A stretch of 35,884 bases of DNA, taken from the IMG/VR virus record IMGVR_UViG_3300027971_000123, positions 1-35,884 of that record. One strand, given 5' to 3'. The notes under the pieces were generated by a model, which ran no database searches, was not told the origin of the DNA, and worked only from the letters and a program-made list of their open reading frames with translations. Shown here in pieces: positions 17,437 to 27,129 of this stretch (position 1 is its first letter; the number at the start of each line of letters is the position of its first letter). The translations under genes and the position numbers were made by a program. Origin of the DNA: a virus.

Positions 17437-17624
17437 GCCATCGGGCCTCTAGCTATACGACCTTTAGTAGCTGCGCCATTCCCACGGGTTTCTATCCCTG
17501 TAGTCTTTACACCAGCCATTTGGTTTTTTGGTTTCATTGGCTTACCATCCATCGTATGTGGTTCGGCATAGACTGTCGCATCACCAATCTCTTTACCCAT
17601 TACTTTTTTAGAGAACTTTGCCAT
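17433..17624 (-). CDS. Tiny basic conserved phage protein (63 aa)
   Basis: The protein begins MAKFSKKVMGKEIGDATVYA and ends ETRGNGAATKGRIARGPMA. It is basic, Gly-rich and probably disordered at the C-terminus. The same opening and the GNGAATKG-x-x-x-RGP ending recur in small ORFs beside adaptor genes of environmental phages (recollection, function unknown). It begins in a TAATG overlap with the previous gene and its stop overlaps the adaptor GTG. It fits the set of small Lys/Gly-rich proteins seen further upstream, but lacks their C-terminal tag. Confidence 0.75.
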   Translation of the reverse strand: MAKFSKKVMGKEIGDATVYAEPHTMDGKPMKPKNQMAGVKTTGIETRGNGAATKGRIARGPMA

Positions 17625-17809
17625 TATCGACCCCTTGAGCCAGATTTCTGATTCATCACACGAGCCATGTTTCTGCCGTATTTCTTCATATCAACGGTAG
17701 TAACACCACCAGCTTTCATGCCGTGCATACGCTTCTCATGTCCTTTGACGGCTTTCTTTGCTACCTTCTCCATCATTGGCATATCTTTTTTTACGTCTTC
17801 GTGTTTCAT
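17624..17809 (-). CDS. Tiny Lys/Met-rich conserved phage protein (61 aa)
   Basis: The sequence opens MKHEDVKKDMPMMEKVAKKA and continues VKGHEKRMHGMKAGGVTTVD, MKKYGRNMARVMNQKSGSRG. It is strongly basic, with a helical N-terminal half and the M-K-A-G-G-V segment that also occurs just before the tag of the cassette proteins at 19.8-22.1 kb. Small ORFs with the same 'MKHEDVK ... GRNMAR-x-x-NQ' pattern are common in environmental phages with no assigned role. It has a usable Shine-Dalgarno (TAGGAGTAATT before ATG 17809). It could be a DNA- or RNA-binding packaged protein, which is speculative. Confidence 0.78.
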   Translation of the reverse strand: MKHEDVKKDMPMMEKVAKKAVKGHEKRMHGMKAGGVTTVDMKKYGRNMARVMNQKSGSRGR

Positions 17810-17817
17810 AATTACTC

Positions 17818-18201
17818 CTAAGTTATGGTTACTGTTACGGTTCCTAAACCACTTTGGGCTGCTAAATTGTTTGGTGTTAGCCCATCATTACTAGACCCTC
17901 CAACGGGATTCCATCCCCATTGAAATATTCTACTACCTCCTGACACATTCCCCAAGCTATCTGTACCGGAATTTTTATAACTTACATCTGGTCTAGGATT
18001 CCTTAAAGCCTGTGGATCATCTACTGGGTACATTCCTAAACTTAACTGCGGTTGATCTGGTTCCCAACACTCAGGACATACTTTAATATTCTTTTGTGTT
18101 TGTTTTATTGTTAGCTTCTTTAACTCTTTTAGTTTGTAACGCTGCCCACAACGATCACACTCTGAAATCGCATTTTTTCCGGATGCAAATGCATTAGGCA
18201 T
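17818..18201 (-). CDS. Zinc-ribbon-like conserved phage protein (127 aa)
   Basis: I start at ATG 18201, behind AGGA; the longer frame would need a TTG at 18222 inside the previous gene. Residues 1-50 hold two Cys-x-x-Cys pairs (Cys15/Cys18 in ECDRCGQRY and Cys42/Cys45 in VCPECW), spaced as in a zinc ribbon. DQPQLSLGMYPVDDPQALRN and RPDVSY follow, then a Gly/Ser-rich tail ending SGLGTVTVTIT. The zinc-ribbon half is a recurrent small phage protein with no assigned function. The tail resembles the beta-repeat unit of the 232-aa protein. Its place between two connector-type genes suggests a minor virion or assembly role. Confidence 0.78.
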   Translation of the reverse strand: MPNAFASGKNAISECDRCGQRYKLKELKKLTIKQTQKNIKVCPECWEPDQPQLSLGMYPVDDPQALRNPRPDVSYKNSGTDSLGNVSGGSRIFQWGWNPVGGSSNDGLTPNNLAAQSGLGTVTVTIT

Positions 18202-19123
18202 AGAATGTATTCCTAGGAACAAATCGAGAAGGTGCTTTTTCTCGATCTTCTGTTGATGCTAATAACCACTGTTCTTCGTACTCTTGTTTTAAAAACCCAA
18301 GCCGTGCCTGTCCATCTGGAAGTTTTTGTGCCATATAGAACGCTAGTCCAGATACCAAACAAGGTAGTAATCTAAACGGTATATCTTGAATAATCTCACC
18401 ATTCGTTCCACCGTCTTGAATTCTACGCAAACGCCAGTAAATAAATGTGTATGGTCCACCACCAGCATCCGGAGTTGGCCAGATATTAATACATGGTAAG
18501 TTCTGTACGGTAATTGGCGCAGCCGTTGTATGAGATGCGGCGGTTGTATTATTCTGCCCTCTTGCACAGTTTGTTAATACGTTTCCTACAATATTTACAT
18601 AACTAATCGTCTCGGAATCAATCTTAATAAATCCCGCACTAGGTAAACTGTATGCACTAGATACCGTGATTGACGTTGTTGTAGCGTTAATCGTGCCATT
18701 TAAAGTCGCAGTTGCGGTGTAATCTAAACCTGTTTGACGGTTAATCCATACTTGAATTGGTCTACCAGTAGTCAGTTTATTAGGTATCGTAGCGTAGGTT
18801 GGCTCAGATATACGACTAATTGATATGTCTATTTGGGTAGACGGAGTACTATTATTTTGCCGGATTTGATGGTCTAAAAGGTCTATTGTATCAATTGGAA
18901 TTGGGTAAATAGCCTGTCCTGTGGTAAGTAAGATCTGACCTTGTTCTACCGTCCAAAGATTTAAACCTCGGTTTGCCCACTCAATTGTTAATAAATTAAG
19001 TGACCGGCGAGCTGTGCGCATATCATAACCTGTACGCAATTCAGTACCACAACGCTCAAAGGCTTCCTCAATTAGATTATTTAGATCTAAATTTGATGTG
19101 GTAGTTCCCGATGTCAGTGCCAT
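18194..19123 (-). CDS. Probable connector/tail adaptor structural protein (309 aa)
   Basis: The N-terminal helical part (NLDLNNLIEEAFERCGTELR, then RTARRSLNLLTIEWANRGLN, LWTVEQ) resembles head-completion or tail-tube connector proteins such as P22 gp4 in pattern, and is followed by a beta core (INIWPTPDAGGGPYTFIYWR) and helices (FRLLPCLVSGLAFYMAQKLP). A beta insertion at about residues 135-210 (IKIDSETISYVNIVGNVLTN, CARGQNNTTAASH) is a module that recurs in many phage tail proteins. It sits five genes before the SU10-type adaptor. Which of the two contacts the portal cannot be decided here. It begins in a TAATG overlap. Confidence 0.65.
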   Translation of the reverse strand: MALTSGTTTSNLDLNNLIEEAFERCGTELRTGYDMRTARRSLNLLTIEWANRGLNLWTVEQGQILLTTGQAIYPIPIDTIDLLDHQIRQNNSTPSTQIDISISRISEPTYATIPNKLTTGRPIQVWINRQTGLDYTATATLNGTINATTTSITVSSAYSLPSAGFIKIDSETISYVNIVGNVLTNCARGQNNTTAASHTTAAPITVQNLPCINIWPTPDAGGGPYTFIYWRLRRIQDGGTNGEIIQDIPFRLLPCLVSGLAFYMAQKLPDGQARLGFLKQEYEEQWLLASTEDREKAPSRFVPRNTFYA

Positions 19124-19484: not shown

Positions 19485-19833
19485 GATAACCTCCTCCTGC
19501 TGCTTTATACCGTTTAGCCATCAATTGTGCTTTTCTGGCTGACCACTGCCCCGCACCCGTACCCTGTACTGCGGAGGCTTTGATGCTATTAAATATACGT
19601 TTACGCAAACTTGGTTTTGTGTAGTTACCAGCTTCGTTTACTTTAGACTGTCCACCTGCGGCCATTTTCTTAGGTTTAATACCCTTTTCTTTCATAGCAA
19701 TTGCCGTAGCCGCCTGTTTAGCTAAACCGCCTTCAGCAAATTGCATAAAGTCCGTATCATCTCTACGAGCTTTCTTTTTAGCACCGGGCATTTTAGATGG
19801 GTTTATATCTCCCATTCCACGAGAGGATCTCAT
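19477..19833 (-). CDS. Basic conserved phage protein, DUF5872-like end (118 aa)
   Basis: The N-terminus (MGDINPSKMPGAKKKARRDD, then TDFMQFAEGGLAKQ) is followed by KPKKMAAGGQSKVNEAGNYT and KPSLRKRIFNSIKASAVQGT, GAGQWSARKAQLMAKRYKAA, GGGYRD. The last half, with GQWSARKAQL-x-AK-x-Y and GGGY, is a short domain I recall as DUF5872; its function is unknown. It carries two A-x-GG motifs (FAEGGLAKQ, MAAGGQSK) of the kind that precede the C-terminal tag in the neighbouring proteins, but not the tag itself. Its ATG overlaps the previous stop as ATGA (19830-19833). It is very basic, suggesting nucleic-acid binding (inference). Confidence 0.8.
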   Translation of the reverse strand: MRSSRGMGDINPSKMPGAKKKARRDDTDFMQFAEGGLAKQAATAIAMKEKGIKPKKMAAGGQSKVNEAGNYTKPSLRKRIFNSIKASAVQGTGAGQWSARKAQLMAKRYKAAGGGYRD

Positions 19834-20111
19834 GCACGGGTCTTTCCACGAATAGCACAGCCGTCAGCACGTTTAGAGGCGCTGGAAACGTTTCCACCAG
19901 CTTTATATTTGCTAGGCTTTATGATTGTTTCTTTCTCTATAACAATTTCTTTAACGGGTTCTTTTGCTTTTATTCTACGGGCTTTAGACTCTTCACGAGT
20001 TTCTCCGCCAAGCTCTTCGTTAATTACTTCTATAGGATTTGCTAATTTATACTTATCAGTAACTTCACTTACCTTGTCACTGGTATCTTTTAACATTTTC
20101 ATTATTGACAT
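19830..20111 (-). CDS. Cassette protein with VSSASKRADGCA C-terminal tag (93 aa)
   Basis: I start at ATG 20111, just after the upstream stop; a longer frame to 20144 would overlap the previous gene's conserved tag. The body is helical and charged (MSIMKMLKDTSDKVSEVTDK; EELGGETREESKARRIKAKE; PVKEIVIEKETIIKPSKYKA). It ends in GGNVSSASKRADGCAIRGKT-RA, nearly identical to the ends of three other proteins encoded within 2 kb. The shared end with unrelated bodies suggests a recognition tag. No known function. Its stop overlaps the next ATG (ATGA), which ties it to the 118-aa protein. Confidence 0.78.
   Translation of the reverse strand: MSIMKMLKDTSDKVSEVTDKYKLANPIEVINEELGGETREESKARRIKAKEPVKEIVIEKETIIKPSKYKAGGNVSSASKRADGCAIRGKTRA
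19833..19892 (-). repeat. C-terminal tag copy 1 (NVSSASKRADGCAIRGKTRA)
   Basis: The last 20 codons of the 93-aa gene encode the shared tag, in the form ending Ile-Arg-Gly-Lys-Thr-Arg-Ala. Synonymous codons differ from the other copies. Confidence 0.9.
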
Positions 20112-20113
20112 AA

Positions 20114-20908
20114 TTAGGCTCTTGTCTTTCCACGAACTGCGCATCCATCGGCTCTTTTAGATGCACTAGAAACGCTCCCTCCACTAGCCATCTTTTTAAT
20201 TGTGCCGCCTTTTTTCTTACCCATTAAACTTCTTTGATTTTTAATAATACGGTCTTCTCTTTCAAAATCTTCAAAAGGTGTACCTTTTATTGCGCCAGAT
20301 TCTTTTGCTAATTTAAACTCAGGACTATTTAGTCTCTTCATTACCGCACGATAATCAGGATTTGATTTCTCCATACTTGAGGCATATGACTCTTCTGCCG
20401 CTGCTGCATCATATGCAGGTTCTTTTGCTTTTGGTTTGGCTAATTCTGTAGTGTAAGACTTTCCATTAAAAGTAAATGTCTTGCCACCGCCAGCTCTTGC
20501 ACTTTTAAACGCTTCGCCAAAAGTTTGTTTTTTAGGTGAAGCTGTAGGTTTGCTTCTAACACTTGTTTCTTCTTCAACACCGGCCTCTATTATTGGCGTT
20601 GTTATAGTTTTAGTTTCTGTTTTAATTTCAGCAGGTTTTTTATCAAGTTGGACAGGTTTAGCTATTTGATCTTCGCCTCTTACTAATTTAAATAGATCAA
20701 TTCCGGGATCTTTTAATTGACCCATACGGTATTTAACTATCTCATCATCGCCAGTGTATCCGCCATCCTCAAATTTTTTCATTCGTTTAGAGCCCTTTTT
20801 CATAGGGTGTTTTGTCATTCCACCCTTTTTCATATAGCCCATCTTGTTACGAACTTCTGTGGGTAACTTAGCTAATCCGGGATTTTTCTTAGCATCAACA
20901 GGTTTCAT
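20114..20908 (-). CDS. Cassette protein with VSSASKRADGCA C-terminal tag (264 aa)
   Basis: The largest tagged protein. Its N-terminus is Lys/Met/Gly-rich (MGYMKKGGMTKHPMKKGSKR, MKKFEDGGYTGDDEIVKY). A long low-complexity region of Lys, Glu, Thr and Pro follows. Near residues 127-155 is FGEAFKSARAGGGKTFTFNG then KSYTTELAKP, a segment I recall from many environmental phage proteins of unknown function. The C-terminal part is helical and ends GGTIKKMASGGSVSSASKRA-DGCAVRGKTRA. The start ATG 20908 directly abuts the previous stop. The body has no recognised enzyme motif. The FNGKSY segment may be a small ordered domain and the rest is probably disordered. Confidence 0.82.
   Translation of the reverse strand: MKPVDAKKNPGLAKLPTEVRNKMGYMKKGGMTKHPMKKGSKRMKKFEDGGYTGDDEIVKYRMGQLKDPGIDLFKLVRGEDQIAKPVQLDKKPAEIKTETKTITTPIIEAGVEEETSVRSKPTASPKKQTFGEAFKSARAGGGKTFTFNGKSYTTELAKPKAKEPAYDAAAAEESYASSMEKSNPDYRAVMKRLNSPEFKLAKESGAIKGTPFEDFEREDRIIKNQRSLMGKKKGGTIKKMASGGSVSSASKRADGCAVRGKTRA
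20117..20176 (-). repeat. C-terminal tag copy 2 (SVSSASKRADGCAVRGKTRA)
   Basis: The last 20 codons of the 264-aa gene encode the tag. It is preceded by the sub-motif KKMASGG, as in copy 4. Confidence 0.9.
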
Positions 20909-21385
20909 TTAGCAAGCCCTTCCGCCTTTAGTCATTTTCTTCATAGGCATACCACCCATGTTCATTTTTACCATAGTGCCTTTGGTCTTACCCTTGACTT
21001 CAACACCACCACCTTTAGCCATACCACCCATATTCATTTTCTTTACAGGTTTTTTTGCCATACCACCTTTTTTCATTGGCATTGCAGGAGTTCCGGGCAT
21101 CGGTCTACCAGCTTGCCCCATTTGATTGTCCATACCCATACGTCCGCCTACAGGCATTTGCGCTCTTTGTGGCATTGCCGGTCTTTTAGCGGCCATCATT
21201 GCTGCCATCATTCTTGGATCCATTTTTGAAGCCATCGTATCACCACCTTTTTTAAAAGTTTTGCCTTTGTCGGCGTTTGAAAAATCACGCCCCACGGACT
21301 GTGGGACACCTACCTTCTTAGCAAAAGCTTTATTATGAGCAATTGCTTCCATAAAATTGTGCTGCTTTTTACTGCTACTTGGCAT
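20909..21385 (-). CDS. Met-rich basic protein with DUF3008-like start (158 aa)
   Basis: Residues 1-48 (MPSSSKKQHNFMEAIAHNKA, FAKKVGVPQSVGRDFSNADK) form a short helical module that resembles DUF3008-type small phage proteins. The remainder is extremely Met-rich (26 Met of 158 residues) and Gly/Lys-rich, with repeated GGM, KMNMGGM and MKKGGMAKK segments. It ends GGGVEVKGKTKGTMVKMNMG then a tail closing in GGRAC, which looks like a diverged version of the tag (GG-x-V ... KGKTKG, with the single Cys moved to the end). It starts in a TAATG overlap with the 98-aa tagged gene. The composition suggests a disordered nucleic-acid- or metal-binding tail, by inference only. Confidence 0.8.
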   Translation of the reverse strand: MPSSSKKQHNFMEAIAHNKAFAKKVGVPQSVGRDFSNADKGKTFKKGGDTMASKMDPRMMAAMMAAKRPAMPQRAQMPVGGRMGMDNQMGQAGRPMPGTPAMPMKKGGMAKKPVKKMNMGGMAKGGGVEVKGKTKGTMVKMNMGGMPMKKMTKGGRAC

Positions 21386-21681
21386 TACACCATCCTACCT
21401 CTAGTTTTACCTTTAACTGCACAACCGTCAGCACGCTTAGACGCACTAGATACTGATCCGCCTTTTTTCATTGATTTTATTTTGTCCATTGGAATATCAT
21501 CAAATCCTTCTATTCCTGTTTTAATTTTTGTATCACTTCCAGTTGGTTTTCTTAAAGGTACACTTTTTACTTCTTTACCATCCATTTTAAAATCATAATC
21601 TCTATCTGGTTTGCGAAGCATTCCTTTATCTGTAGTTTTACCAGATTTTAATGCGTTTGAAAACTCTTCCATATCAGCCAT
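21385..21681 (-). CDS. Cassette protein with VSSASKRADGCA C-terminal tag (98 aa)
   Basis: A charged, probably disordered body (MADMEEFSNALKSGKTTDKG, MLRKPDRDYDFKMDGKEVKS) leads to KIKSMKKGGSVSSASKRADG followed by CAVKGKTRGRMV. The body has no similarity visible to the other tagged proteins, while the end is nearly identical. Start and stop are both in TAATG overlaps with the neighbouring cassette genes, so the set is translated as a coupled unit. Function unknown. Confidence 0.82.
   Translation of the reverse strand: MADMEEFSNALKSGKTTDKGMLRKPDRDYDFKMDGKEVKSVPLRKPTGSDTKIKTGIEGFDDIPMDKIKSMKKGGSVSSASKRADGCAVKGKTRGRMV
21388..21456 (-). repeat. C-terminal tag copy 3 (SVSSASKRADGCAVKGKTRG + RMV)
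   Basis: The last 23 codons of the 98-aa gene encode the tag in the Lys form (AVKGKTRG) with a short hydrophobic end, RMV. Confidence 0.9.
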
Positions 21682-22094
21682 TATATTATCCGTCCTCTTG
21701 TTTTACCTTTGACTGCGCAACCATCAGCTCGTTTAGAAGCACTAGAAACTTTGCCACCACTAGCCATTTTCTTAACCTTACCACCTTTATGCATTTCAGC
21801 GGATTGCATTCTTGAATTAATTTGTCTTAATTCGTCATCTGCTGCATAGTCTGGGTTTAAGTTAATACTTCTTTTTTCAATTTCAGGCTTTGTTTCGCCA
21901 ACTTTAGGAATGTTTGTTCTGTAATTAATAGATGGCTTTTTTGCTTCTGTTATTTCGTTCGCTCTTGCTCTATCAGCAAACTTACTCAGTGCTGCTAATC
22001 CAGTTCCTTTTGCTCTTCCTAACGGACTTTTAGCATAAGCAGCATCTTCTTCAGCTTCTAAGAAGGCGAATATTGGGTCTTTTACTTTAGCCAT
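21681..22094 (-). CDS. Cassette protein with VSSASKRADGCA C-terminal tag (137 aa)
   Basis: The N-terminal part MAKVKDPIFAFLEAEEDAAY, AKSPLGRAKGTGLAALSKFA is helical and Ala-rich. The middle is charged (KPSINYRTNIPKVGETKPEI). The end reads MHKGGKVKKMASGGKVSSAS then KRADGCAVKGKTRGRII. It is the first of the tagged genes in transcription order and follows the 80-aa membrane protein gene by 5 bp. The KKMASGG sub-motif before the tag is shared with the 264-aa protein. No enzyme or binding motif is recognised beyond the basic tag. Confidence 0.82.
   Translation of the reverse strand: MAKVKDPIFAFLEAEEDAAYAKSPLGRAKGTGLAALSKFADRARANEITEAKKPSINYRTNIPKVGETKPEIEKRSINLNPDYAADDELRQINSRMQSAEMHKGGKVKKMASGGKVSSASKRADGCAVKGKTRGRII
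21684..21752 (-). repeat. C-terminal tag copy 4 (KVSSASKRADGCAVKGKTRG + RII)
   Basis: The last 23 codons of the 137-aa gene encode the tag in the Lys form with end RII. The DNA differs from copy 3 mostly at third codon positions. Confidence 0.9.
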
Positions 22095-22099
22095 TTTGT

Positions 22100-22342
22100 T
22101 TACCTCGAAATAAGCTGGTCAATTTTGTTTTCAAGCTTGTTAAACCTTGCATCAATGTGTTCAACAATCCGGTCAACTTCTGCTTTAGTGACGTTATCAC
22201 GGGCTACCTCTTCTCTTGTTTTGTTTAACAAAATACCGATACGGGCTAACTCTGTAAACTTCTCATTCATCATATAGGCTATGACTGCTATTAGTATAGT
22301 CAGTCCGCTTGTCCATAACTCCATCACGTTTAGCATTTCCAT
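22100..22342 (-). CDS. Small membrane protein with coiled coil (80 aa)
   Basis: One membrane span lies at about residues 9-24 (LWTSGLTILIAVIAYMM), followed by a charged helix with EEVARDNVTKAEVDRIVEHI and a terminal heptad-like DARFNKLENKIDQLISR. The first ATG (22342) overlaps the upstream gene by 13 bp; internal ATGs at 22336 and 22324 are alternatives. It resembles the small lysis-region membrane proteins at 11.5-11.9 kb in layout, but it is 10 kb away from holin and endolysin. It could anchor a virion or assembly complex to the membrane, or be an accessory holin-like protein. Not resolved. Confidence 0.72.
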   Translation of the reverse strand: MEMLNVMELWTSGLTILIAVIAYMMNEKFTELARIGILLNKTREEVARDNVTKAEVDRIVEHIDARFNKLENKIDQLISR

Positions 22343-22584
22343 CTTTTTAGACTCGCAGCCTTCCTTGTTGGTTTGCCGTTCTCGTCTTTCATTGGTCCGG
22401 GCATCCCTGACATCCTAGCGCAAAACGACTTCTTCCTTGCACCGCCTTGCGGTTGCGGAGCCTTTAGATTAGACCCCGTAGCCGCATTATACTTAGCTCT
22501 GCCTTTTGCAGTAAGACCCGCCCCTTTAGATACAGGCAGTTTCTCACCTCTACCAATAGACAGGGACGGAGACTTTTTAGCCAT
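22330..22584 (-). CDS. Small basic conserved phage protein (84 aa)
   Basis: The start is ATG 22584, inside the previous gene's last codons (8-bp overlap); the longer frame to 22632 lies within that gene. The sequence MAKKSPSLSIGRGEKLPVSK, GAGLTAKGRAKYNAATGSNL, KAPQPQGGARKKSFCARMSG then KPTRKAASLKRWKC is a very well conserved small phage protein in my experience (SKGAGLTAKGRAKYN and GGARKKSFCARMSG are its hallmarks). Its function is unknown. Lys/Arg richness with two conserved Cys suggests nucleic-acid binding or an internal capsid component. Confidence 0.8.
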   Translation of the reverse strand: MAKKSPSLSIGRGEKLPVSKGAGLTAKGRAKYNAATGSNLKAPQPQGGARKKSFCARMSGMPGPMKDENGKPTRKAASLKRWKC

Positions 22585-23089
22585 AATAAATATTAACTGC
22601 CAGTAAGTTAACCATGTAAGCATAGATACCACTTACAGCTACAACACCTTCTCCGGGAATTAATGGTGCATTATTAAATATATCTGTTGCACTTACGTCA
22701 TACGATAGTAACCATCTACCCGTGGTATAGACTGCGGCTGGACTAGCTGTGATAGTTCCAGTATTAATATCGGTAATAGTAAAAGTGCTAGATGTTAATA
22801 CTGTAACCGCATAGTTACCATTAGTCGCAGCGCCACCTGTACCAATACCAAACTCAATCCCAATAACCTGTCCTGTGGTTAGTCCATGAGCAGACTGCGT
22901 AACGGTGACTGTTGTTCCAGAGCGTCCGTAGGTTGCTGTGGTTACTGGGGCTGTAGTTGTATCAAATAGCGTGACTTGTCCTGCGGTAGCAGTACCCACA
23001 AAAGAAAGCCCTTTGACACGATTTCTTCCCAACACCAAAAATCCACTTTGATTTAGGTGTCCTTGTTTTACGTCATATTGCATACCCAT
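22577..23089 (-). CDS. Virion structural protein with beta insertion (170 aa)
   Basis: The ends (MGMQYDVKQGHLNQSGFLVL, and GEGVVAVSGIYAYMVNLLAV) frame a central module SGTTVTVTQSAHGLTTGQVI, NGNYAVTVLTSSTFTITD. This 'SAHGLTTG...NG-x-Y-x-VT...STFT' pattern is a beta-sandwich-type insertion repeated in many phage tail and head surface proteins. The gene follows the 179-aa gene after a 39-bp gap with Shine-Dalgarno GGAGATTAATT. A role as head fibre, decoration or connector component is inferred from place and composition. Confidence 0.7.
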   Translation of the reverse strand: MGMQYDVKQGHLNQSGFLVLGRNRVKGLSFVGTATAGQVTLFDTTTAPVTTATYGRSGTTVTVTQSAHGLTTGQVIGIEFGIGTGGAATNGNYAVTVLTSSTFTITDINTGTITASPAAVYTTGRWLLSYDVSATDIFNNAPLIPGEGVVAVSGIYAYMVNLLAVNIYYG

Positions 23090-23128: not shown

Positions 23129-23668
23129 TTAAGAAGTAGCAAACGGAGTAGCAACAGTACCAGAACCTAGCACTGTGCCTGTAACCATATACTTTAGTGC
23201 AGTAATTGCGTAGATCTGTACAAATGTACCTGCAACTCCACCAGTGGTTGTACCGTTAAAGTTAATAAAGTCATCACTTGCACCAGCAACGAAGCCACGG
23301 GCTGCGTCTGTTGAATCAGTGTCAATTGACAATATAGCGCCTACATACTTATCTGTGCCGTCAGTACCAATCTTCAAGGAAGAAGTAGAGATTGTGGTTG
23401 GAACCCAAATGGTGTACACCACGCCTTCGTTGTTCAGCGTGCTTGGATCTTGACCGGGGCCGGAAGTGGTTGGGTTTGCAGATGAGTTAATGGTTGGTAA
23501 AGTTAAAGTTAAAGCAGCCGCTAAAGAACCACCTACGGAAATAATACGTCCACCATGAGCCTCTGGGCTTAGGGTAGTGCTGGTTGTAATTTCAACAATA
23601 GTTGCTGGACCTTGTTGATAAATGCCACCTAATGAACGAAGTGGACCTTGGAATGTGGTGCGAGCCAT
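23129..23668 (-). CDS. Virion structural protein, possible decoration protein (179 aa)
   Basis: A Thr/Ser/Gly/Ala-rich beta protein beginning MARTTFQGPLRSLGGIYQQG, with strands TIVEITTSTTLSPEAHGGRI, AALTLTLPT and DKYVGAILSIDTD. Its composition is typical of surface-exposed capsid or tail proteins. It is the first gene after the terminator and leader that follow the major capsid gene, with a good Shine-Dalgarno (ATAGGAGAATTAAT). That position suggests an abundant structural protein with its own control. I recognise no named family. Confidence 0.68.
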   Translation of the reverse strand: MARTTFQGPLRSLGGIYQQGPATIVEITTSTTLSPEAHGGRIISVGGSLAAALTLTLPTINSSANPTTSGPGQDPSTLNNEGVVYTIWVPTTISTSSLKIGTDGTDKYVGAILSIDTDSTDAARGFVAGASDDFINFNGTTTGGVAGTFVQIYAITALKYMVTGTVLGSGTVATPFATS

Positions 23669-23805: not shown

Positions 23806-24717
23806 TTACGCTCCGGGCGAACCGAACATTCCTAATGGATCCGAGAATCCAAAAGAATAACGCTCACGAGACTTGTAACGGACGTTACCTGTATCGAAGT
23901 CACCGTCCATCGAGTTACTCAAAGGTGTACGAACAAAATGCTTCATACCATTTGGTACATCGGTGCAGATGAAGTAAGCATTTGTATCAGTCAGATAGTT
24001 ATTTACTGTATAACCTTCTGGGATTGAACTATTGCTTACGATAGCGTTGATGTCGTTGTCTGCTGTTGCAGTACGGAGCTGTGTCTCTAATAGACGAGTA
24101 GCCACGAACTGTAATGCAGGTGGAACAACTAGCTTACGAGGTTTAGCGGCGATTAACAAGCCACGCTCATCAGTCCAAGCAGCGATTTGAATGACAGCGG
24201 CTTCTAAAGAAGTCTCATTCAAGTCAGCAGGGGTAGATTGAGTGTTGCTGTTTGTGCCGCCAGAAACCAATGGATGTGACGTACTGAATAAAGCCACGCC
24301 ATCACCACCAGCATAAACACCAGCAGAGAAACCGTTGTTTAAGACGGAAGCTGCTTTAGTTTGCTTAGTGTAAGCCATTGCACGAGCTAATGCTTTGGTA
24401 TAGCGTGATGATAGGCTATCGTAGAGGTTATCTTCGATTGCTTCTTCAGTCAAGCTAAAGCCAAGGGCAATAGTTTCGTGGTTATAACGAGCTGTGAAAG
24501 CTTCTTGTGCATTGTCATAAGCGATGGCAGAACCTTCGTTTTTGACCGGTGCAGCATTAAAGCCAGACAGTTTTGTTTCTTCTTCGAACGAACGCTCAGA
24601 AGTCTCTGATGCATAGATTTCTTTGTGTTGTTCGCCATACGTTGCATACTCCAAACCAAACAAAGCGTTTAGTCCGGGAAGCAACTCTTTAAGTAGCTGC
24701 GCTCTTGAAATAGCCAT
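23806..24717 (-). CDS. Major capsid protein (Mu gpT-like / HK97-fold)
   Basis: A 303-residue protein with the features of Mu-gpT-type major head proteins. The N-terminus is MAISRAQLLKELLPGLNALF. A conserved SFEEETKLSGFNAAPVKNEG region follows, then helix SSRYTKALARAMAYTKQTKA, ALFSTSHPLVSGG, AKPRKLVVPPALQFVATRLL-ET and YFICTDVPNGMKHFVRTPL, and it ends KSRERYSFGFSDPLGMFGSP. The HPLV-x-GG and 'KP-x-x-LVVPP-x-L' segments are what I use for recognition. The gene follows the scaffold and precedes a strong terminator, as expected for the most abundant late product. Shine-Dalgarno GGGAG lies 7 nt upstream. The precise family could be a related HK97-fold group. Confidence 0.83.
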   Translation of the reverse strand: MAISRAQLLKELLPGLNALFGLEYATYGEQHKEIYASETSERSFEEETKLSGFNAAPVKNEGSAIAYDNAQEAFTARYNHETIALGFSLTEEAIEDNLYDSLSSRYTKALARAMAYTKQTKAASVLNNGFSAGVYAGGDGVALFSTSHPLVSGGTNSNTQSTPADLNETSLEAAVIQIAAWTDERGLLIAAKPRKLVVPPALQFVATRLLETQLRTATADNDINAIVSNSSIPEGYTVNNYLTDTNAYFICTDVPNGMKHFVRTPLSNSMDGDFDTGNVRYKSRERYSFGFSDPLGMFGSPGA

Positions 24718-25802: not shown

Positions 25803-26723
25803 TTAAGACTCCATTTTTACTAGTTCACGGGCGTATTGCTCTGGCGTTAGACCTAACCTTTTAGCTATCGATAGCTGCGAAGTATTAAGCTTTACCTTTT
25901 TCGAGGATGTGCTTCGGTTCGCTGGGGCAACTACGTTACTAAGTTTTTGTCGAGGCTTCTCGTCTTCAGCTTCTTCAAAGTTTTCAGGAAATCTTTTGCG
26001 CATTGTTTCGTCAATACGCTTGTAATACTCGTCAGTCGTAGCATAAGCCATTCCATTTTCTTTGACAAGCTTTTCGTGTAGCCCTAAAGCTAGACTTGTC
26101 ATTTCATCATCTTGCCCAAACCAAGAGTTTCGGTCTTGCCATGAGGAAGCTTTCTGATCACGGGGTGGTCTTTCCGGCTGTTGTTGTATTTTTACTTCAT
26201 TTCTTTCTTGTTGTAAAGCATTTTTTTGTTGCATATTTTGCGCAACATTATCTGCCCTATCTAATTTAATGCGGGCGGTAGTCATTTTTTCCTGTGCTTC
26301 GACTAACCTATCGCCATCTCCGGAGTCATAAGCCTCTTTATATTCCCGCTTTGCCATCTCCATTTCACGCTGGGCGGCGGTTTTGTAAGAGTCAACAGCA
26401 TAATTCTCACTGTTGGTAACTCTGCCTTTTAAAGATTTATTCTCCTCAAAAAGCTGTTTGGCTATATTAATAGCTTCTTGTCTTTCACGGTCAGCCTCTT
26501 CTTTAGCACGGCGTTCATCGTGATAAATCTTCCTAAATCCAGCTATCTTTTGTTTAGCGGCCTCAGAGTATTCATCAAGTTCATCCTTTTCCATGCTCTC
26601 AACAAACTCAGGTTCAGAAGGAGTTTTGCCACGATCCTGTTTGGGAACGTCACTCTCCACCTCAACTTCTATCTTTTCGTCTGGATACTTAAATTCGTCA
26701 AAGCCTAATTTATTTTCTGCCAT
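25803..26723 (-). CDS. Probable scaffolding protein (306 aa)
   Basis: I start at ATG 26723, which has a strong AAGGAG 6 nt upstream; the open frame extends to 26753 without a good start. The protein is highly charged and mostly helical. It has an acidic N-terminus (residues 1-50), a long coiled coil (about 55-185; DERRAKEEADRERQEAINIA and TAAQREMEMAKREYKEAYDS), a Gln-rich linker and a basic C-terminal end with KKVKLNTSQLSIAKRLGLTP then EQYARELVKMES. A basic helical C-terminus that binds coat protein is the hallmark of scaffolds such as P22 gp8. Position between co-chaperonin and capsid genes agrees. No protease domain is seen. Confidence 0.8.
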   Translation of the reverse strand: MAENKLGFDEFKYPDEKIEVEVESDVPKQDRGKTPSEPEFVESMEKDELDEYSEAAKQKIAGFRKIYHDERRAKEEADRERQEAINIAKQLFEENKSLKGRVTNSENYAVDSYKTAAQREMEMAKREYKEAYDSGDGDRLVEAQEKMTTARIKLDRADNVAQNMQQKNALQQERNEVKIQQQPERPPRDQKASSWQDRNSWFGQDDEMTSLALGLHEKLVKENGMAYATTDEYYKRIDETMRKRFPENFEEAEDEKPRQKLSNVVAPANRSTSSKKVKLNTSQLSIAKRLGLTPEQYARELVKMES

Positions 26724-26733
26724 CGTAAACTCC

Positions 26734-27129
26734 TTATTTTCGTCTAATACCACGGGGGTCGGAAACTACACCTTCTACTGTATCGTCATTGATAATGCGG
26801 AACTCTTTATTATGTATGACTAGTCTTGTGCCTGCGTGGGGGCGTACAAGGATAAAATCACCCTTCTTACACCACGGCCCAGTTGGGAACTTAACTTTAT
26901 CTAAATAACAATCGGGTCCTAAATCTATTACAAACAGCACTGTCGTAAGCGTTTCTTCATTTCGCATTGTTTCGTCTGATTTGAGGATGCCTCCGTCATG
27001 CTCTTTTTCCGCTTCCGGAATGGCGCAGAGTATGCGATATCCAGAGGGCTTTGGGAGCTGTGTTGCCTTCTCTTCGCTTCTTTTATTAAGAACTAAAGAT
27101 AAATCTACTGCCTGTGCTAGGTCATTCAT
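26734..27129 (-). CDS. Phage co-chaperonin, GroES-like
   Basis: A 131-residue protein whose residues 27-125 follow the Cpn10 fold: KPSGYRILCAIPEAEKEHDG (first strand of the barrel), a mobile-loop-like GGILKSDETMRNEETL (46-61), VLFVIDLGPDCYLD, FPTGPWCKKGDFILVRPHAG, TRLVIHNKEFRIINDDTVEG and VVSDP. The 'GDF-x-LV-x-x-x-AGT' and 'NDD-x-V-x-GVV' parts are typical of GroES and phage relatives. Such proteins cap the host GroEL and, in T4 (gp31), are needed to fold the major capsid protein. Position between portal and scaffold supports a capsid-folding role. It overlaps the upstream 63-aa gene by 8 bp. Confidence 0.85.
   Translation of the reverse strand: MNDLAQAVDLSLVLNKRSEEKATQLPKPSGYRILCAIPEAEKEHDGGILKSDETMRNEETLTTVLFVIDLGPDCYLDKVKFPTGPWCKKGDFILVRPHAGTRLVIHNKEFRIINDDTVEGVVSDPRGIRRK

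Follow-up and report, generated by a model that had tools for sequence, protein, structure and literature searches.

A common C-terminal peptide on unrelated small basic proteins encoded beside the head genes of uncultured phages

Tagged genes at the locus

The window, by which we mean the whole 35,884-base virus record analyzed here (IMG/VR record IMGVR_UViG_3300027971_000123), has a late region that reads along the minus strand. Between positions 19830 and 22094, four of five genes, all on that strand and encoding proteins of 93, 264, 98 and 137 amino acids (aa), end in VSSASKRADGCA-x-[KR]-GKTR, with SASKRADGCA[VI][KR]GKTR[GA] as the last residues. We refer to this ending as the tag and to what precedes it as the body. 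The initial annotation had described the shared peptide and proposed a C-terminal signal on unrelated proteins near the head-tail adaptor genes. That proposal is now strongly supported, and at least 471 distinct proteins with the tag were found in all. The phages concerned form a widespread, largely uncultured lineage of bacterial viruses, in which the same tail of ~20 residues sits on hundreds of unrelated small basic proteins.

With the tag removed, the four window bodies show no similarity to one another (pairwise BLASTP, best E = 0.28), as the initial annotation had judged by eye. BLAST clustering of 465 bodies gave 216 clusters, 158 of them singletons, although homology below the sensitivity of BLAST is possible for short disordered sequences. 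Simple gene duplication was rejected on these grounds as the origin of the shared end. The fifth gene, encoding 158 aa, was said to carry a diverged form of the peptide. Its core, GGGVEVKGKTKG, is indeed related, and it is sub-terminal, in a protein that also has repeated KKGG/MNMGG.

The tagged 264 aa protein has a confidently predicted segment. AlphaFold2 (AF2) gives a predicted local distance difference test (pLDDT) score of ~95 at residues 131-150 and ~43-52 across the last 30 residues, and Foldseek with this model returned one weak match, to an uncharacterized protein of an uncultured phage. The segment belongs to a recurring 30-residue module, F..AF..AR..G.KTF.[WF].GK.Y.T, at 20438-20533 on the minus strand (approximately residues 126-157), a confident helix and hairpin in prediction within otherwise disordered tagged proteins. 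The position of this AF-AR module varies, at the start of some tagged proteins and in the middle of others. For the 93 aa gene, a longer alternative start at 20144 would give 104 aa; we favor the start at 20111, since it lies 2 nucleotides (nt) past the previous stop, a more typical coupling.

Table 1. Features of the tagged block and its surroundings in the window
Feature	Position	Strand	Evidence and remarks
Tagged gene, 137 aa, orphan body	21681..22094	-	Open reading frame; body in 0/128 related loci
Tag VSSASKRADGCAVKGKTRGRII of the 137 aa gene	21684..21749	-	Profile match E 1.7e-18, whole-record search
Tagged gene, 98 aa, orphan body	21385..21681	-	Open reading frame; body in 0/128 related loci
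Tag VSSASKRADGCAVKGKTRGRMV of the 98 aa gene	21388..21453	-	Profile match E 6.3e-19
AGAGGTAGG in tag codons (Arg-Gly-Arg), Shine-Dalgarno-like for the next gene	21394..21402	-	Sequence; codon bias in 471 genes
158 aa protein with N-terminal KKQHNFM module	20909..21385	-	phrog_16759, PHROG E 3e-20
Tagged gene, 264 aa, helix-hairpin module TFGEAFKSARAGGGKTFTFNGKSYTTEL, disordered tag	20114..20908	-	Open reading frame; body in 10/128 loci
Tag VSSASKRADGCAVRGKTRA of the 264 aa gene, short two-residue class	20117..20173	-	Sequence, profile search
Tagged gene, 93 aa, orphan body	19830..20111	-	Open reading frame; body in 1/128 loci
Tag VSSASKRADGCAIRGKTRA of the 93 aa gene	19833..19889	-	Sequence; codon bias of the two-residue class
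Major capsid protein	23806..24717	-	phrog_371 E 2.7e-24; reference point for tag positions
DUF6321 protein	22330..22587	-	Pfam PF19846 E 2.9e-23; without tag in the window
Portal/tail adaptor homologue	18194..19123	-	phrog_12985; far boundary of the tagged block
61 aa protein with GRNMARVMNQ tail	17624..17809	-	Sequence

Distribution, genomic position and turnover

Our DNA patterns fixed K-R-A-D-G-x-A-x-[KR]-G-K-T, and the protein core fixed ADG, [KR] and GKT. The loci recovered are mostly partial contigs and are not independent; counts are lower bounds, and frequencies describe the sample. The degenerate DNA pattern gave at least 120 matches in the viral collection, as did narrower patterns, and at least 685 distinct core-bearing open reading frames (ORFs) were collected across all loci. 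In at least 471 distinct proteins, nearly all from IMG/VR, the core lies exactly five (406 proteins) or two (65) residues before the stop. The distance to the stop, the residues past the core and the SSAS before it had been left free. The unfixed positions are conserved anyway, with S, A and S before the core at 74%, 86% and 90% and a Gly at position -4 in 94%. The single conserved Cys of the initial annotation proved local to the window. Among the 406 proteins with five residues past GKT, the position is Ile in 49%, Cys in 48% and Val in 2%, and the replacement of Cys by Ile in half of the tags weakens the idea of a Cys clamp.

Loci chosen by their capsid gene and spanning capsid to adaptor contain at least one strict tag in 27 of 32 cases and at least one relaxed tag in 29 of 32, which makes the finding independent of the pattern search. 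A position-specific scan of capsid-chosen loci recovered 75 ends resembling the tag, and 55 of these have the core in its strict form. The core is not restricted to the C-terminus. In one family of 59-68 aa proteins, 41 of 42 members have it at the other end, 5-6 residues past the N-terminus, and it is sub-terminal in 128 proteins, many akin to the product of the window's 158 aa gene. A motif placed at protein ends in these three arrangements has, we infer, the look of a docking peptide. Proteins elsewhere that share the GRNMARVMNQ tail of the window's 61 aa protein have an ADGxAxKGKT core 5-6 residues from the N-terminus. This small protein and its kin lie ~4-7 kilobases (kb) past the capsid gene and have a constant GRN[ML]A[RK]..NQ tail and a variable N-terminal half; unlike many copies elsewhere, the window copy is without the N-terminal core.

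Deposited phages are almost devoid of the peptide. A tblastn search of 50,697 phage records with two window-type tag forms found no match, and the sole match type in these records was the form of Planktothrix phage Pag-Yong1, present in three records of apparently one genome. OL906435.1 (Planktothrix phage Pag-Yong1), OQ594354.1 (Synechococcus phage MinM2) and PP438419.1 (Planktothrix phage Pra-JY27) are all 65,014 long and do not differ in their tag stretches; a single genome seems to have been deposited under three host names. In Pag-Yong1 the single tagged gene occupies the same genomic place as in the IMG/VR lineage, downstream of the capsid gene, which shares 69% identity with that of the window, and its product, the orphan protein UMO75986, ends in GMIGRDGCAKRGRTKGRFI. 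It differs from the window in having one copy only, with a diverged core. The related isolates HTVC023P, HTVC027P, DSL-LC04, CRP-901 and 023Pt_psg01 have no tag genome-wide, and a literature search for the tag peptide found no relevant paper. A genome scan returned 63 stretches, mostly chance matches; four that look real (L125, L139, L170 and L174) are probably phage contigs in environmental bins.

The position of the tagged genes is constant. In 211 capsid-bearing loci, all 356 core-bearing ORFs lie downstream of the capsid gene on the same strand (median 2.4 kb), and none was found in the 744 kb upstream of the capsid gene or on the opposite strand. The capsid gene itself was seen in 90 of the 93 tagged loci having at least 4 kb of upstream sequence; two of the exceptions (L332 and L368) are of the same lineage and truncated by contig ends, and the third is a mixed bin. 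A profile search of 19 whole IMG/VR records (43-87 kb) gave 2-5 matches in each, nearly all in one block. The few exceptions outside the block are short, weak matches, some of them resembling the protein with the N-terminal core.

Tagged bodies turn over fast while the tag is kept. The four window bodies, in the order of the table, recur in 0, 0, 10 and 1 of 128 capsid-to-adaptor loci; in the same loci the DUF6321 gene is present in 122 and a 118 aa gene in 120. The share of tagged bodies held in common is 2-7% at capsid DNA identities below 85%, 18% at 85-92% and 16% above 92%, the last bin having only 12 ordered pairs and 19 bodies. Other genes of the same interval are shared at 31-80% across the capsid identity bins, reaching 80% at capsid identities of at least 92%, and the gap between tagged and other genes persists for bodies of 50-120 aa.

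As a class, the tagged proteins have a median length of 114 aa (full lengths 40 to ~350 aa) and are all positively charged, with a median net charge of +10 and a range of +6 to +23, to which the tag alone contributes ~+5. Cys makes up 0.08% of body residues compared to 0.88% in neighboring genes, an approximately ten-fold depletion. The bodies are Cys-poor despite the one Cys in half of the tags. Among 80 different tagged proteins searched against Pfam, PHROGs and NCBIfam, a DUF6321 fusion (1/80) was the only convincing family match. Since modules such as KKQH, the AF-AR hairpin and MKK..[FY]..GG starts are shared among them, the bodies are mosaics themselves.

Besides the tagged block, the late region of the window contains a terminase, a portal, a GroES-like gene, a putative scaffold (25803-26753), the major capsid protein, decoration-like genes, the DUF6321 protein and a pair of adaptor genes, of which one matches Pfam SU10_adaptor. 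The DSL-LC04 counterpart of the adaptor homologue that bounds the block is annotated as Pam1 adaptor; this homologue is present in 128 of 128 loci, a set selected for having an adaptor gene. Relatives of the DUF6321 protein form an 18-member cluster of tagged proteins. DUF6321 (PF19846) and phrog_16759 are small modules of the same gene block that occur with and without the tag; they are bodies joinable to it, not the tag itself. The decoration-like gene at 23129-23668, adjoining the capsid gene, has a counterpart in just 13 of the 128 related loci. Its copy in L332 shares 94% identity with it, compared to 77% for the adaptor of that locus. From this contrast and its scattered presence, the gene seems mobile between phages as a unit.

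Selection on the peptide and dual coding of its end

AF2 predicts the tag with pLDDT below 60, alone or within the 264 aa protein. The tag has no significant PDB match and no PHROG match below E 0.08, and the 264 aa tag-bearing family has no Pfam match. Predicted disorder, with no solved structure, PHROG or Pfam family covering it, marks the tag as a short linear motif and not as part of a known folded domain. Of the two findings that the initial annotation named as refuting its proposal, homologous bodies and a known fold, neither was made.

Window tag codons differ at silent sites to near saturation (pS 0.80) with few amino acid replacements (pN 0.10), and pN/pS is 0.30 over all genomes, or 0.46-0.48 at the columns that the search had not fixed. 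Low pN beside saturated pS argues that selection acts on the tag as a peptide, and the near-saturated silent sites rule out a conserved DNA element. Selection had been claimed in the initial annotation and stands; the accompanying claim that the copies were not recent holds only in part. Two pairs of window tag copies share local codon stretches, and the silent identity of same-type tags is 0.58 within a genome versus 0.38-0.39, which points to some copying or gene conversion between tags. Agreement at the x-[KR] dipeptide is likewise higher for tags of the same genome (0.44 and 0.70) than for tags on the same body (0.27 and 0.55). That the dipeptide tracks the genome over the body is expected if one genome-encoded partner reads all tags.

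The 3' end of the tag looks like a second signal, a predicted Shine-Dalgarno site for the next gene, a feature that the initial annotation missed. Here the evidence is codon statistics. In nearly all cases, the stop of the tagged gene and the start of the next ORF are no more than a few bases apart. When five residues follow GKT, the Gly at -4 uses GGA or GGG in 72%, usually with AAG or AGG as the codon after it, whereas GGA or GGG encodes the Gly of GKT in 3%. When two residues follow, that Gly is GGA or GGG in 80% and its Lys is AAG in 80%. The Gly codon switch between the two classes is highly significant (Fisher p 3e-44). Purine-rich codons are avoided in the core (AGR for Arg 3-5%, GGR for Gly 13-14%), so the core is not itself the ribosome-binding site. 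The spacing required of a Shine-Dalgarno site is the most likely reason for the fixed length of the tail, and the functional peptide probably extends no further than GKT[KR]. In the window, the gene following AGAGGTAGG begins with an ATG at 21385 that overlaps the stop of the 98 aa gene, and the Gly-Lys codons GGAAAG of VSSASKRADGCAIRGKTRA (19842-19847) lie 8 nt ahead of the next gene's overlapping start (19833).

A possible loading signal and its alternatives

We propose a model where a linear motif of ~17-20 residues, KGG-x-SSASKRADG[CI]A-x-[KR]-GKT[KR], would be recognized by one component of the assembling head, be it the capsid interior, the scaffold or the portal vertex. The motif would bring in bodies that are small, basic, free of Cys and for the most part disordered. 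These would be exchangeable cargo of the virion, probably ejected along with the DNA, and would be swapped rapidly with the tag retained. The logic would be that of the phage T4 internal proteins, in which bodies diverge and only the capsid targeting sequence (CTS) is common. As the following gene would draw its Shine-Dalgarno site from the last tag codons, each tagged gene may act as a complete module that can be plugged into a coupled late operon. We tentatively prefer to see the tag as a C-terminal loading signal that puts exchangeable cargo into the virion, while granting that this could well be wrong. We are more doubtful of the fuller picture, a C-terminal cargo tag that needs no prohead protease, is fused to the next gene's ribosome-binding site and serves as a universal plug by which hundreds of proteins are delivered to the host. 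Cargo loading is the best explanation we have for a terminal motif that is confined to the head block, under purifying selection, predicted to be disordered, dual in its coding and attached to bodies that turn over. Recognition by a head protein, presence in the virion, delivery to the host and a counter-defense or takeover role for the bodies would be its consequences.

Cargo loading is held most likely on the precedent of T4, a precedent overlooked by the initial annotation, which knew of no described mechanism. The T4 internal proteins IPI, IPII and IPIII are small, basic, fast-diverging head proteins that share a terminal CTS (PMC3012670, PMC9026906). That sequence is N-terminal, 10-19 residues long and removed by the prohead protease gp21 (PMC3012670, PMC9026906), and IPI, once injected, inhibits a restriction enzyme (PMC9026906). 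Both systems have a short terminal peptide common to unrelated small basic proteins, and in both the bodies are highly variable among close relatives. In contrast to the T4 signal, the tag is C-terminal in 471 cases, with an N-terminal core in only one 59-68 aa family, has another sequence and overlaps the next gene's ribosome-binding site. Given its position, its different sequence and no known cleavage, we do not class it in the T4 CTS family, although it would function in the same manner if the loading model is right. Another likeness is to encapsulin cargo-loading peptides, short linear motifs by which an HK97-fold shell recognizes cargo proteins that are otherwise unrelated (PMC8346489, PMC10960027). 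The likeness lies in a short linear peptide on unrelated proteins, and recognition by a phage shell would be its counterpart here; encapsulins differ in being cellular compartments with a few dedicated enzymes.

Several points weigh against loading. No tagged protein is known from any virion, no prohead protease was recognized among the window proteins scanned (Pfam, PHROGs), and the tag is missing from the window's large structural proteins and enzymes. The T4 signal is N-terminal and cleaved by the prohead protease, whereas the tag is C-terminal. Copying explains part of the similarity of tags within a genome, although the remainder would fit a partner that varies from phage to phage. Capsid and adaptor trees fit tag type about equally, so that no single partner emerges.

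The tag might instead bind the capsid outside, the portal or the tail adaptor, in which case the bodies would serve as decoration or plug at the head-tail junction and would not travel inside. The tagged block lies directly between the capsid/decoration genes and the adaptor genes, and the type of tag shows co-variation with the tree of the adaptor (z -5 to -6). However, the capsid gene tree co-varies equally strongly when nucleotides are used, and bodies that are largely disordered, basic and Cys-poor are unlike typical decoration domains; we regard such docking as unlikely. The adaptor was tried as the partner named by co-variation, and the lead vanished with neutral labels and nucleotide trees. 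The positive charge of the tag and of the whole proteins would also suit a peptide that binds nucleic acid, condensing the packaged DNA or protecting it, and that enters the head with it by no specific recognition. An electrostatic clamp, however, needs no conserved Asp, Gly, Gly and Thr, and the full core is kept in 55 of the 75 tags found without a pattern while basic positions drift between Lys and Arg, which makes this account improbable. It is slightly harder still to sustain the idea that the tag is itself the effector, a multi-copy peptide such as a host-enzyme inhibitor, with the bodies as mere drifting disordered spacers. Extremely fast body turnover, the near absence of family matches (1/80) and one cluster whose 56-57 aa members barely exceed the tag would be expected of it; conserved modules among the bodies (DUF6321, KKQH and the AF-AR helix-hairpin with pLDDT ~95), the wide range of body lengths and the selective scarcity of Cys in them would not.

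Two further accounts we give very little credence. The conserved end could be a translational artefact, made up of codons for the next gene's ribosome-binding site or of a nascent peptide controlling coupling. The strong codon bias at the last positions, its switch between classes and the closeness of the next start fit this idea, yet it covers only the last 3-5 residues and is mostly refuted for the core, which is kept as a peptide, judging from avoided purine-rich codons and nearly saturated silent sites, and which is found at protein N-termini too. Equally remote is a proteolysis or maturation signal, in which a protease would read the tag, for example at the preceding KGG, and release or remove the proteins. 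A KxGG-like stretch does precede the tag in 398 of 471 proteins, but it is loosely kept and often repeated elsewhere in the proteins, the conserved part comes after it, and no protease partner was recognized among the scanned window proteins.

If cargo loading is right, what was already known is T4-type targeting at the N-terminus, and what would be new is a C-terminal tag in another lineage together with its overlap with a ribosome-binding site. Such an overlap of peptide tag and translation signal would show by what means a phage can have a series of interchangeable genes that all stay labeled and can all be translated. The tag would then provide a C-terminal loading signal for heads of this kind and an experimental handle on how cargo enters them. 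It would also open up a large pool of unknown injected phage proteins, which could be picked out by one simple sequence criterion, an ORF whose product terminates in ADG-x-A-x-[KR]-GKT followed by two or five residues. As the T4 internal proteins include an injected inhibitor of a restriction enzyme, it is tempting to speculate that this tagged pool may hold new counter-defense or host-takeover proteins.

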